Source: Rhodococcus phenolicus
GTDB taxonomy: Bacteria; Actinomycetota; Actinomycetes; Mycobacteriales; Mycobacteriaceae
Direction of reading: 5' to 3'
Length of the DNA stretch: 64,000 nucleotides
Assembly: GCF_001646785.1 (NCBI RefSeq)
Contig: NZ_LRRH01000001.1
Span: 124,001-188,000, forward strand
Shown here: piece after piece, positions 11,578 through 15,431 of the stretch
How the letters are laid out: each line of letters opens with the position of its first letter
Numbering within the stretch: position 1 is the stretch's first letter
Position numbers and translations under genes: made by a program
Notes under the pieces: generated by a model
Databases searched by the model: none
Told to the model about the DNA's origin: nothing
The model's input: the letters and a program-made list of their open reading frames with translations, nothing else

Positions 11578-12033
11578 TCAGCGGCCGGGCCGCCCGGGGC
11601 GCGTCGCGGTGGCCGCCACGCCCGACAGCAACGAGTAGATCGCGATTCCGACGACGAGGTGGATCGTCCCGCTCCCGATCTTCGCCGCGAGCGTCGCGCT
11701 GACGGTGAACGGCCACAGTGCCGCCGTGATCGTGGCGAGTATGCAGATCCAGCCGAAGAAGGTGGTTGCCCTCGGTGTCGTCAGGATGAGCAGGTGAAGC
11801 AGCGCCGTCGCGATGAGGGCCGCAACGATCGCATGCCCGACGATCGTGGTGACCTGTGAGTTTCCCAACTGCAGCGCGGATGTGATCACCGGGATCCCCA
11901 GTACGTCGCGCACCAGCAGCAATCCGACGGCCGCCGTCAGACCGGCGACCAGGGCGGTGGCGGCGCCACCCGCCCACAAGCGTTTCGCATCGACCGTCGG
12001 CTCGGCGGAACGGTCGGCTCGATATGCATCCAA
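11578..12033 (-). CDS. DUF6069-like four-helix membrane protein
   Basis: A 151-residue integral membrane protein with four hydrophobic segments: RLWAGGAATALVAGLTAAVG, a second starting TIVGHAIVAALIATALLHLL, a third around FFGWICILATITAALWPF, and a last around GTIHLVVGIAIYSLLSG. The layout fits the actinobacterial DUF6069 family, function unknown. No ATG or GTG sits near the conserved part; the TTG at 12033 is preceded by GGAGGGG and is taken as the start. It is convergent with the DUF389 gene and leaves a 27-base gap. Confidence 0.78.
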   Translation of the reverse strand: MDAYRADRSAEPTVDAKRLWAGGAATALVAGLTAAVGLLLVRDVLGIPVITSALQLGNSQVTTIVGHAIVAALIATALLHLLILTTPRATTFFGWICILATITAALWPFTVSATLAAKIGSGTIHLVVGIAIYSLLSGVAATATRPGRPGR

Positions 12034-12139
12034 CGAGTGCTCCCCTCCGGGCTGCGGACCGGTCTGCCGCCAACGTAACCGAGCGGCGCCCGGCGAAACC
12101 TCATCCCCCGCGGGTGAGATCACCGCCGCGCATGGGGCG

Positions 12140-12766
12140 TCAGCGACGGCGTGCCACGACATGAACCTCGGGAAAGCGATGGAATCCGGGGCCGGGGCGG
12201 CTGATCGTCCGCCACATCTCGTCGAATCCGGCGGTTGCGAGCGCCCCGGCGAGCCGGTCCGGATGCCACCGCCATGCCCGTGCGACGGCGTGATCGAACT
12301 CGGCGACCTCCCCCGCCTCGTCGGTGGCCTGGGCGGCGACCGCGAGCACCGCACCCGGAACCGTCCTGGCCGCCCAGCCGGCGAGCACATCGGGAATGTC
12401 GGTGGGCGGCACGTGGATCAGGCTGTACCGGGCGATGATCGCGGCGATGCCGCGTCCACCGAGATCGGTGGCCTCCAGAAACGCGTCGTCGTGGTCGAAA
12501 CGGAGACCGGGATACGTGCTCCGTGCGATCGCGAGCATCTCCCGGCTCGGATCGACACCGATCACGTCCAGTCCTCGATGCGCGAGGTCCGCGGTGACGT
12601 GCCCGATACCGCACCCGACATCGACGACGACGCCACCGACGGCACTGTCGAGCACGAGCTCCGCGAACGCCGCGACGACGTGACGTTCGAGCGGCGTCGT
12701 CGACGACGCGGGAAACATGTCGGCGTAGAGGTCTGCGAGCGCGTCGTATCCGGGCTGATGCACCAC
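12140..12766 (-). CDS. class I SAM-dependent methyltransferase
   Basis: A 208-residue methyltransferase. Motif I is VVVDVGCGIGHVTADLAHRG, the acidic loop is VIGVDPSREML, and the post-motif region has AAIIARYSLIHVPPTDIP. Substrate unknown; a small-molecule target is likely by size. The start is one of two adjacent GTG codons (12766 or 12763) without a clear ribosome site. It is divergent from helR. Its predicted promoter overlaps the rifamycin-associated-element-like palindrome, and a terminator-like hairpin lies in its short leader. Confidence 0.85.
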   Translation of the reverse strand: MVHQPGYDALADLYADMFPASSTTPLERHVVAAFAELVLDSAVGGVVVDVGCGIGHVTADLAHRGLDVIGVDPSREMLAIARSTYPGLRFDHDDAFLEATDLGGRGIAAIIARYSLIHVPPTDIPDVLAGWAARTVPGAVLAVAAQATDEAGEVAEFDHAVARAWRWHPDRLAGALATAGFDEMWRTISRPGPGFHRFPEVHVVARRR

Positions 12767-12795
12767 CGCATCGTCCCAGAAACGGCCGGGACATG

Positions 12796-12821
12796 AAAAA
12801 GGAGAGGATCTGCTCCTCTCC
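12796..12821 (-). terminator. terminator-like hairpin in the methyltransferase leader
   Basis: On the minus strand an 8-base perfect stem (GGAGAGGA / TCCTCTCC, 5-base loop) is followed directly by TTTTT, the classic intrinsic terminator shape and rare in this GC-rich genome. It lies upstream of the methyltransferase GTG and only a few bases after its predicted transcription start, so it may be an attenuator. Confidence 0.6.
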
Positions 12822-12829
12822 ACTTTCAA

Positions 12830-12858
12830 GATATAGCGCACCCGGGGCCTTGCGGCAA
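12830..12858 (-). promoter_or_regulatory. predicted sigma-70 promoter of the methyltransferase gene
   Basis: Minus strand TTGCCG (12858-12853), 17-base spacer, TATATC (12835-12830). The -35 box lies inside the palindrome at 12844-12864, so both divergent genes could respond to the factor reading that element. Confidence 0.55.
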
Positions 12859-12864
12859 GACCCC
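12844..12864. promoter_or_regulatory. rifamycin-associated element (RAE)-like palindrome
   Basis: GGGGC, core CTTGCGGCAAG, ACCCC: a 21-base near-perfect inverted repeat 69 bases before the helR ATG. The CTTGCGGCAAG core flanked by G and C runs matches my memory of the RAE consensus upstream of rifamycin-resistance genes, including helR. Its TTGCGG could be the rightward -35 (with CACAAT about 19 bases on). Confidence 0.78.
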
Positions 12865-12933
12865 GGTCATGCCGCACAATCGCTGGCCGTGGTCGAAACC
12901 CCTGATCGCAGAGGCGAGGAAAGCGAGGCGCAC

Positions 12934-15105
12934 ATGCCGATTCGAGGGTACGAAGAGGAACTGGAGTCCGAGCGCGGCTACGTGGCCGGACTGTATGCAC
13001 AACTCGACACCGAGCGGACGGACGCGAGGACCCGGTACACCGAAGCTCTGCGCGATCGGGGAAACACGCTGGTGGATCGGGACGTCGCGGTCCACACCCT
13101 GGCCCGGGAGGTGCGGCGCCTGAACGTCGCCGAAGGAGGGCTGTGCTTCGGGCGGCTCGACGCCGTGACGGGTGAGCGTTCGTACATCGGCCGGATCGGC
13201 CTGTTCGACCAGGACAACGGGTACGAACCGCTGCTGCTCGACTGGCGTGCCCCGGCCGCGCGGCCGTTCTATGTCGCGACCGGCGCCAGGCCGGAGGGCA
13301 TGCGACGGCGCCGTCAATTCTTCTCACGCGGGCGGGAGGTCGTCGAGTTCACCGACGAGATCCTCGGCAGGCCCGGTGGGCACGAACGCGGCAGCCGGGG
13401 CGATTCGGCGCTTCTCGCAGCGGTGAACGCGCCGCGCGGACGGGGCATGCGCGACATCGTGGCGACCATCCAGTCCGAACAGGACGAGATCATCCGTCTC
13501 GACCATCCGGGTGTGCTGGTCATCGAGGGTGGCCCCGGCACCGGTAAGACGGTGGTGGCGTTGCACCGCGTCGCGTACCTTCTCTACACGCAGCGGGAAC
13601 GGATGCAGCGGCACGGGGTGCTCGTCGTCGGACCGAACCCCGCGTTCCTGGACCACATCGGTCACGTCCTGCCGTCGCTGGGCGAGACGAATGTGGTCTT
13701 CGCGACCGCAGGCGACCTCGTTCCGGGCCTGCGCGTCACGGCGGAGGACACCACCGAGGTCGCGCAGCTCAAGGGTTCGGTGCGAATCCTGGATGTGCTG
13801 GCCGCCGCGGTGGCGGACCGTCAACGGCTGCCCCGGGAACCGGTGGTCGTCGAGCTGACGGACGTCACGATGCGGCTCGACGCCGAGGTTGCGCAGTGGG
13901 CCCGCGAGGAGGCCCGCGCGAGCGGCCGGCCGCACAACGAGGCGCGAGCCGTGTTCACCGAGATCGTCACGTGGGCACTGACCGAACGGGCGATCGCGCG
14001 GATCGGGCGCGGCTGGCTGTCCCGCGACGACCGCCGAGCGTGGGAGGACTTGCGAGAGGACCTGCGCGGCGAACTCGCCGGCAACGATGCCTTCACCCGG
14101 GCACTCGACGATCTGTGGCCCGTACTGACACCGGAAAGCCTGCTGTCCGAACTGTTCTCGTCGCCCGTCCGGATGGAGGCGGCAGGCGGCGACGACGCGC
14201 TGCTGCGTGAGCGCGGCGACGCGTGGACCGTGTCGGACATACCACTGCTCGACGAACTCGTCGACCTGCTCGGCACGACCGGCCCGGACGATCGGTCGGC
14301 GACCGGGGATGCTCGGGAAACTGCCTATGCCGCAGGTGTTCTCGACCTTCTGACGAACCGCGAGGACCACATGGACGACGAGGACCACCTGTTCGCGACC
14401 GACTTGCTGTACGCCGAGGACCTGGCGGACCGCTTCGTCGAACGCGACACGCGCGACCTCGCCGAACGCGCCGCCGCGGATCGGGACTGGACATACGGGC
14501 ACATCGTGGTCGACGAGGCGCAGGAACTGTCCGAGATGGACTGGCGGGTGCTGATGCGACGCTGCCCGAGCCGATCGTTCACGGTGGTGGGTGACCTCGC
14601 GCAGCGTCGATCACCTGCGGGTACGTCCTCGTGGGGTGCGATCTTCGAACCGTACGTCCCCGGGCGCTGGGCGTACCGGTCGCTGTCGGTGAACTACCGC
14701 ACCCCGGCGGAGATCATGGCGGTCGCGGCCGCAGTGCTCGCCGACTTCGCACCCGGGACGGTCCCGCCGGAATCGGTGCGCTCGTGCGGGGTCGCGCCGT
14801 GGGCGCGTCGCGTGACCGGCGGTGAACTCGCCACGGCAGTCCGGGAATTCGTCCGTGACGAATCCGGCCGCGAGGGCACCAGCGTCGTGATCGGCCCACC
14901 GGGCGTGCCGGGCGCGGTCGCGCCGTCGGAGACGAAGGGGCTCGAGTTCGACGCGGTACTGGTGGTCGAGCCGGAGCGGATTCTCGCCGACGGTCCGCGG
15001 GGAGCGGCCGACCTGTACGTCGCGCTCACCCGTGCCACACAGCGCCTCGGTGTGCTGTACCGCGGCACGTTGCCGACGGCGCTGGCAGGACTCACCGCGG
15101 CGTAG
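12934..15105 (+). CDS. helR: HelR/HelD-type RNA polymerase-rescuing ATPase
   Basis: A 723-residue superfamily 1 helicase-like ATPase. The N-terminal antiparallel coiled coil (YEEELESERGYVAGLYAQLD) is the arm that enters the RNA polymerase secondary channel. Next is the 1A region with DWRAPAARPFY, Walker A GGPGTGKT (199-206), Walker B HIVVDEAQELSEMDW, then GDLAQRR and the C-terminal SF1 motifs NYRTPAEIM and LYVALTRATQRL. HelR displaces rifamycin from, and recycles, RNA polymerase. The ATG at 12934 fits the known N-terminus (MPIRGYEEEL) with a GAGGAAAGCGAGG ribosome site. The RAE-like palindrome upstream supports the helR name over plain helD. Confidence 0.92.
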   Translation: MPIRGYEEELESERGYVAGLYAQLDTERTDARTRYTEALRDRGNTLVDRDVAVHTLAREVRRLNVAEGGLCFGRLDAVTGERSYIGRIGLFDQDNGYEPLLLDWRAPAARPFYVATGARPEGMRRRRQFFSRGREVVEFTDEILGRPGGHERGSRGDSALLAAVNAPRGRGMRDIVATIQSEQDEIIRLDHPGVLVIEGGPGTGKTVVALHRVAYLLYTQRERMQRHGVLVVGPNPAFLDHIGHVLPSLGETNVVFATAGDLVPGLRVTAEDTTEVAQLKGSVRILDVLAAAVADRQRLPREPVVVELTDVTMRLDAEVAQWAREEARASGRPHNEARAVFTEIVTWALTERAIARIGRGWLSRDDRRAWEDLREDLRGELAGNDAFTRALDDLWPVLTPESLLSELFSSPVRMEAAGGDDALLRERGDAWTVSDIPLLDELVDLLGTTGPDDRSATGDARETAYAAGVLDLLTNREDHMDDEDHLFATDLLYAEDLADRFVERDTRDLAERAAADRDWTYGHIVVDEAQELSEMDWRVLMRRCPSRSFTVVGDLAQRRSPAGTSSWGAIFEPYVPGRWAYRSLSVNYRTPAEIMAVAAAVLADFAPGTVPPESVRSCGVAPWARRVTGGELATAVREFVRDESGREGTSVVIGPPGVPGAVAPSETKGLEFDAVLVVEPERILADGPRGAADLYVALTRATQRLGVLYRGTLPTALAGLTAA

Positions 15106-15134: not shown

Positions 15135-15431
15135 ATGTCCGCCGCCGTATGGATTGCCCTCACCGTCCTGATCGCCGTGCTCGCCGATCGTGCCGGGTTG
15201 TACGCCGAGCGGCGCGGCTGGATCTACTGGCGTAAACGAAAGCCGGAGGGCGGCGGCGAGTTCGGCGAGTTCGGCGAGTTCGAGACACTGCTCTCGCCGT
15301 CGTTTCGGCACATCGTCGAGGAACAGCAGCGGCAGCGAACGTCGCGGCACGAACAGGGCACCGGGGCGGATCCCCTCGGGGTCGATCTCGACGCCGGAAC
15401 CGTGCGGTGGGACCGCACGGACTGGTGGTGA
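15135..15431 (+). CDS. DUF6191-like small membrane-anchored protein
   Basis: A 98-residue protein: one N-terminal hydrophobic segment (AAVWIALTVLIAVLADRAGL), then a basic GWIYWRKRK stretch and a soluble region ending VDLDAGTVRWDRTDWW. This resembles the actinobacterial DUF6191 family, function unknown. A run of GEF repeats (three tandem 9-base units near 15255-15282) sits in the middle. It lies 29 bases after helR, so it could be read through from it. Confidence 0.75.
   Translation: MSAAVWIALTVLIAVLADRAGLYAERRGWIYWRKRKPEGGGEFGEFGEFETLLSPSFRHIVEEQQRQRTSRHEQGTGADPLGVDLDAGTVRWDRTDWW

Follow-up and report, generated by a model that had tools for sequence, protein, structure and literature searches.

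In Actinobacteria, the rifamycin-associated element (RAE) is described as a 19-bp palindrome accompanied by two sense promoters, for which a further factor has been proposed (PMC10719064, PMC8655204; these and the papers below are cited from excerpts of their text). One such element lies in a 64,000-nt stretch of the Rhodococcus phenolicus genome (contig NZ_LRRH01000001.1, positions 124,001 to 188,000; hereafter the window), between helR on its right and a class I S-adenosylmethionine (SAM)-dependent methyltransferase gene on its left (Table 1). From the anatomy of this element and of its counterparts in other genomes, we consider it likely that two divergent promoters use the palindrome as a common -35, that the leftward promoter yields a stub RNA, and that the methyltransferase gene is not linked to the element.

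Two other systems offer points of comparison. At helD/pps of Bacillus subtilis, an antisense promoter with a 19-bp spacer, stronger than the sense promoter that it opposes, produces a short terminated RNA and represses the sense promoter until rifampicin arrests it (PMC12802891). In Escherichia coli, bidirectional promoters consist of one symmetric sequence that binds RNA polymerase either way (PMC12825309), a symmetry shared by the RAE; the E. coli promoters differ from the arrangement found here, in which the -35 is common to both directions and the predicted starts are ~66 bp apart. The element in the window resembles described RAEs in its palindrome, in the kinds of gene that it precedes and in its overlap with the -35 of the resistance gene (PMC10719064, PMC8655204), but here the palindrome is the centre of a ~95-bp element that also includes a predicted leftward promoter in mirror image; many loci add a terminator anchored at the predicted leftward start. 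The likeness to helD/pps would lie in a resistance gene opposed by a promoter with a 19-bp spacer, in a short terminated RNA, predicted here from sequence and conservation, and in the greater strength of the opposing promoter, reported in B. subtilis and predicted here from the boxes (PMC12802891). However, the B. subtilis promoters are convergent and non-overlapping, spanning 39 bp including both starts, and shortening by 17 bp abolishes control (PMC12802891), whereas those proposed here are divergent, with overlapping -35s. The convergent, non-overlapping layout of the B. subtilis alarm is absent from this locus, and the authors of that work separate the RAE genes from their own system (PMC12802891); the RAE may work like the B. 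subtilis alarm but is no member of it.

Predicted divergent promoters and a hairpin at the predicted leftward start

The window satisfies the description of an RAE in having a 19-bp palindrome with G/C arms around CTTGCGGCAAG, placed upstream of helR and overlapping its -35 in a conserved -35/-10 register. The core and the -35-like hexamers on both strands had been recognized in the first-pass annotation, and all are present. CTTGCGGCAAG occurs as a single exact copy in the 6.28-Mb genome. The RAE 20-mer GGGGCTTGCGGCAAGACCCC is found with one mismatch at 12845-12864, its sole genomic place within three mismatches, and its backward-read control also gave one match in the genome. The bare 11-mer is not rare: its backward control gave 2 + 3 genome matches, and with up to two mismatches it falls at 17 places in the window versus 16.5 expected by chance. 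Because a consensus scan of 12000-13100 found no standard promoter with a 16-18-bp spacer on either strand, the case for promoters rests on conservation.

Conservation was assessed on RAEs collected by scanning GTDB genome contigs with GGNCTTGCGGCAAGNCC, a pattern in which the core is fixed, as are positions +/-7 and +/-8 of the arms, but the -10 boxes are free, and which returned at least 118 stretches. Counting both sites of L051 and adding four loci from the own genus (that of the window and those of three relatives), the stretches listed give 123 sites. Assignment by homology of the neighbouring open reading frame (ORF) places 87 of the sites listed before resistance genes (HelR 36, Rox 30, Rph 8, Rgt 7 and Arr 6), with family names verified on one representative per cluster and the Rgt representative below its NCBIfam cut-off (507.6 vs 800); the 36 without an assigned resistance gene served as controls. 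The HelR assignments leave out a 104-aa fragment (L057) and the left-hand HelD in L083, and an alternate-frame ORF of L139 was excluded from Rgt. To these was added a Mycobacteriaceae sample of 70 loci (30 tool-chosen, 40 hand-chosen across genera from among the places listed), reduced to 69 by the unassigned L150; a gene match in this sample could lie as far as 1.5 kb downstream, and a few may therefore not be immediate neighbours. Removal of near-duplicates (>85%) reduced 156 RAEs to 145 (HelR 67, Rox 51, Arr 12, Rgt 8, Rph 7), each oriented by its resistance gene, independently of the promoter boxes.

In this set, 141 of 145 RAEs have a leftward TAnnnT at offset 21, counted from the centre, and an equal 141 have a rightward nAnnnT at the mirror offset (+21 to +26); spacers of 19 bp separate both boxes from the TTGCSG hexamers at the palindrome. 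Over offsets 12-59, the counts of A2 with T6 have medians of 2 on the right and 1 on the left, and the runner-up peaks reach 69/144 on the left (offset 27, none with T1) and 31/145 on the right (offset 24). Two of the four RAEs missing the leftward box (L109 and L124) carry it one base closer. A base profile of 82 sites gives T.98, A.98 and T.96 at positions 21, 22 and 26 of the left strand, and A.99 and T.98 at 22 and 26 of the right. The full mirror element is present in 138 of 145 RAEs versus 7 of the 36 pattern matches without an assigned resistance gene, all 7 of them actinobacterial. The original proposal for this locus, that both strands carry a promoter using the palindrome, is supported by these counts, and two-way promoter activity of the RAE is a well-supported prediction. 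The leftward hexamers originally put forward, TTGCCG-17-TATATC, were read correctly as letters (TATATC lies at 12835-12830 on the minus strand), but the conserved leftward hexamer is TATCTT at 19 bp; conservation holds for the 19-bp register, but not for the sixth base of the hexamer at 17 bp.

The two directions are not equal. The consensus first base of a -10 is found in 141 of 145 leftward boxes and in just 1 of 145 rightward ones, where the commonest form is CAGAAT (68/145), followed by CACAAT (28/145), the form present here; the leftward TATCTT of the window is the form in 10/145. The central base of the palindrome is G in 106 of 145, giving a leftward -35 of TTGCCG, with C5 as in the consensus, and a rightward TTGCGG, the reverse holding in 39. 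The promoter boxes are thus predicted mostly to favour the leftward direction.

Downstream of the predicted leftward promoter of the window lies a hairpin followed by five T, which the first-pass annotation had overlooked (one terminator found vs 0.4 expected by shuffling; -14.7 kcal/mol, z -3.5). The predicted leftward start falls at position -33, seven bases past the leftward -10, and across RAEs exact 6-nt hairpin arms peak at that very position, in 36/144 against at most 5 at -27 to -31. A start-anchored test was applied, requiring a hairpin within two bases of -33 and three or more T among the eight bases that follow, with 100 dinucleotide shuffles as background; the hairpin tests exclude L103, a short locus. 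By this test, 49 of 86 sites have a leftward hairpin with a T-rich tail (shuffles mean 2.7, max 8), compared with 1/87 in the mirror rightward region and 0/86 on the opposite strand. With near-duplicates removed, 45 of 81 GTDB-wide and own-genus sites remain (shuffle max 7). By gene, such terminators accompany Rph in 8/8, Rgt in 5/7, Rox in 17/29 and HelR in 18/36. The hairpins at -33 have 11 different arm sequences, and the pair types found at one and the same stem position vary among C-G, A-U and G-C, which indicates compensatory change in the hairpin. A looser hairpin test had given 63/86 on the left (shuffle mean 29.9, max 42) and 21/86 on the right, or, with at least three T, 37 (shuffles mean 6.5, max 11) and 4, respectively; it was replaced by the anchored test because long stems absorb the T tail. 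Taken together, the predicted leftward -10 is near-universal, and the predicted terminator is common and patchy. The single Rfam match fell below the gathering score and was judged to be chance.

A possible switch and its alternatives

How might such an element respond to a drug? RNA polymerase would bind the palindrome in only one of two possible orientations at any moment: overlapping -35s can hardly be shared by two polymerases, and the element should therefore toggle. In the rightward orientation, the promoter with its weak -10 would give helR mRNA; in the leftward one, transcription would start at the very foot of the terminator and give a stub RNA of ~25-30 nt and no methyltransferase mRNA. 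A leftward product that ends almost where it starts would suit a brake or sensor, not a gene promoter. In drug-free cells, the leftward, dead-end orientation would be favoured and the helR promoter held down. A rifamycin would upset this balance, through polymerase alone or together with a palindrome-binding factor, and the rightward promoter would fire. Either arrested leftward complexes would leave quickly, on account of the 19-bp spacers and of HelR itself, or a palindrome-binding protein would help, with which the conserved G/C arms are compatible. Mutual exclusion, the stronger leftward orientation and the way in which the drug tips the balance are what we infer from this layout, and the drug-switch step by itself is held tentatively. 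The fullest version of this proposal, in which the RAE is a polymerase-based rifamycin sensor without a dedicated regulator, its divergent promoters competing for a palindromic -35 and the leftward stub acting as the brake, as a second, independently evolved geometry of the Bacillus dual-promoter alarm, is less probable than not.

Several points weigh against the dual-promoter reading in general. Simple steric competition should give the wrong sign, as a rifamycin-arrested leftward polymerase would also block the -35, and something more is needed. In five E. coli bidirectional promoters, basal activity is too low for competition (PMC12825309). The terminator is scarce in places: in the Mycobacteriaceae sample only 9/63 sites have it start-anchored (shuffle mean 1.2, max 5), hairpins of any tail number 14, exactly the shuffle maximum of 14, and among Arr loci just 1/6 has it. 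For 53 RAEs, drawn from 132 at regular intervals and without selection for hairpins, RNAalifold returned no consensus pairs; the variable loops aligned poorly in the underlying MAFFT alignment, in place of which the start-anchored tests were used. Read on the other strand, the left box (CAAnnT) could be a rightward -10, and a sense start has been reported in Mycobacterium smegmatis ~20 bp upstream of its RAE (PMC10719064); the 82-site base profile holds no strongly conserved -35 upstream of the left box so read. Lastly, the G/C arms of the palindrome are stricter than a -35 requires and point to a protein dimer.

The last of these objections leads to the strongest alternative, namely that the palindrome is the operator of a dimeric regulator of both promoters, that rifamycin or stalled polymerase changes this regulator, and that the stub is a by-product capped by the terminator. 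This reading is plausible, but we do not favour it. The arms are indeed conserved past the -35 (-9 G.96 and +9 C.93, positions that the search pattern leaves free), and a further factor is proposed in the literature, yet no regulator is named in the excerpts of either paper concerned (PMC10719064, PMC12802891). More pointedly, an operator would leave unexplained why the leftward -10 is kept in nearly every RAE with a consensus first base that the rightward box almost always lacks.

A second alternative takes the left A/T box, in place of a leftward promoter, as an UP element of helR or as part of a second sense promoter of that gene. Contacts of the alpha subunit of RNA polymerase fall 52-59 bp upstream of a start, in the UP-element region, and it is at this distance from the predicted rightward start that AAnnTATA lies. 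The possible sense -10 noted above would also be compatible with the two sense starts recorded for M. smegmatis helD (PMC10719064). This alternative is nevertheless improbable, given the exact mirror spacing of the left box and its near-invariant T1, A2 and T6, the weakly conserved stretch from -52 to -45, the expected place of a sense -35, and the leftward polarity and position of the terminator, with 49/86 on one strand and 0/86 on the other.

The genes on either side of the element

The gene to the right was initially annotated as helR, an identification that holds. Its product scores above the cut-offs of the NCBIfam models (NF041465 and NF041258; HelD_MYCSM 1343 bits, cut-off 1051; motor_HelR_2 1320.8, cut-off 1100), and residues 4-721 match chain H (HelD) of PDB 6yxu colinearly. 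By full-length model match, this is a genuine helR of the Class II HelD type, with a predicted protection function. A second HelD paralogue is encoded elsewhere in the genome (L023, G000:C37:36568-38616; 52% identity to HelR), and the 600 bp upstream of its match contain no RAE (best 11/19 letters). Nor was an RAE found before second HelD paralogues (50-53% identity to HelR) in 16 loci, with 14/19 letters as the best match in the 600 bp scanned, a distance that covers less true upstream sequence in several loci where the match starts inside the gene; L018, whose contig begins at the gene, was excluded. In genome G016 (L197), the gene that follows an RAE is Rox-like; the helR orthologue is encoded on the opposite strand at a distance of ~1.5 kb and has no recognizable RAE of its own in the 600 bp upstream of the match (best 12/19 letters).

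The methyltransferase to the left matches Pfam Methyltransf_25 (55.1 bits) and no NCBIfam model above its cut-off. It had been proposed to be rifamycin-inducible along with helR, as a candidate new resistance or repair function. The leftward boxes are indeed there, the gene is suitably oriented, with its start 88 bp away from the centre of the palindrome, and only ~15 bp upstream of it align with genome G017, so that read-through may now be its sole supply. However, the terminator stands between the leftward promoter and the methyltransferase start, and linkage fails across genomes: in look-ups, made for HelR as well, of no more than three ORFs on each side with starts at most 350 bp away, the gene adjoins an RAE at 2 of the 123 sites listed, in the window's genome and in G014. 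In the latter (L006:820-1319) an internal deletion that also changes the frame disrupts the gene, while the RAE, a leftward box (TACGTT) and a hairpin are retained; this hairpin differs in sequence from that of the window and has a less T-rich tail. Of 61 genomes searched, 19 have an orthologue, the window's own among them, and helR is absent from the ~1.5-kb flanks in 10 of the 12 methyltransferase loci checked. In G017, the methyltransferase lies directly beside the 98-aa DUF6191 gene with no helR between; relative to that genome, a unit of terminator, RAE and helR intervenes in the window, the terminator and leftward promoter falling on helR's side of the G017 junction, away from the methyltransferase. 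The unit may have been gained here or lost in G017.

The left neighbours of RAEs in general show no preferred identity, the most frequent family occurring at no more than 4 loci. Their orientation, scored in 134 cases by a crude caller based on codon-position GC whose distances are not trusted, is away in 71 and towards in 63; 11 were too short. Judged from these comparisons, the methyltransferase (METHYLTRANSFERASE) is a bystander of the RAE and not a member of the element, weak read-through into it from the leftward promoter may occur, and its induction as a rifamycin resistance or repair gene is very improbable. A leaderless start at GTG 12823, whose frame is open through the hairpin, was considered and rejected, as neither the upstream codons nor the frame relative to the RAE are conserved in G014; the residues common to the window and G014 begin at the GTG codons 12766/12763.

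Table 1. Features of the RAE locus in the R. phenolicus window (positions within the 64,000-nt stretch)
Feature	Position	Strand	Basis or remark
RAE palindrome, centre 12854, core CTTGCGGCAAG at 12849-12859	12844..12864		predicted overlapping -35s of two divergent promoters
Rightward -35 TTGCGG (putative helR promoter)	12850..12855	+	sequence; 19 bp to conserved -10
Rightward -10 CACAAT, 19-bp spacer	12875..12880	+	A2/T6 conserved at +21 in 141/145 RAEs
Leftward -35 TTGCCG	12853..12858	-	sequence; central G (gene orientation) in 106/145
Leftward -10 TATCTT, 19-bp spacer	12828..12833	-	TAnnnT at mirror position in 141/145 RAEs
Predicted leftward start	12821	-	from leftward -10 register
Putative leftward intrinsic terminator, perfect 8-bp stem, 5-nt loop, TTTTT	12796..12821	-	stem begins at predicted leftward +1
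helR, 723 aa, predicted RNA polymerase recycling factor / rifamycin protection	12934..15105	+	NCBIfam, PDB matches
Class I SAM-dependent methyltransferase, 208 aa	12140..12766	-	Pfam Methyltransf_25; judged outside the element
Unit of terminator, RAE and helR, approximate extent	12781..15091		ends of two flank alignments with G017
98-aa gene (DUF6191), right flank of unit	15135..15431	+	homology, flank comparison

Wider occurrence and meaning of the element

Some RAEs lie in unexpected company. In Actinoplanes aureus (L048:117-1797), a full mirror RAE is located ~104 bp upstream of a gene for a 522-aa major facilitator superfamily transporter (PF07690), a candidate RAE-controlled efflux gene. 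Outside the Actinobacteria, RAE matches stand before Rox-, Arr- or Rph-cluster genes in six loci (L101:3592-5127, L136, L060, L062, L115 and L141), their hosts being a Bradyrhizobium isolate and metagenome-assembled genomes (MAGs) of Xanthomonadaceae, Gemmatimonadaceae and Chloroflexi. These suggest transfer of the switch together with its gene; mis-binning of MAGs may also contribute.

Literature searches, which did not cover the primary RAE papers, returned no description of an RAE that has a leftward promoter or terminator, and any claim to novelty is limited accordingly. As for what the finding means, the methyltransferase is removed as a false lead, and the mirror element enlarges the motif with which new RAE-controlled genes can be found. 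How the RAE of Actinobacteria senses rifamycins was still called unresolved in January 2026 (PMC12802891). To the question of whether polymerase itself is the sensor, the predicted leftward promoter, present in 141 of 145 RAEs, and its terminator bring concrete targets: one -10 box and one hairpin.
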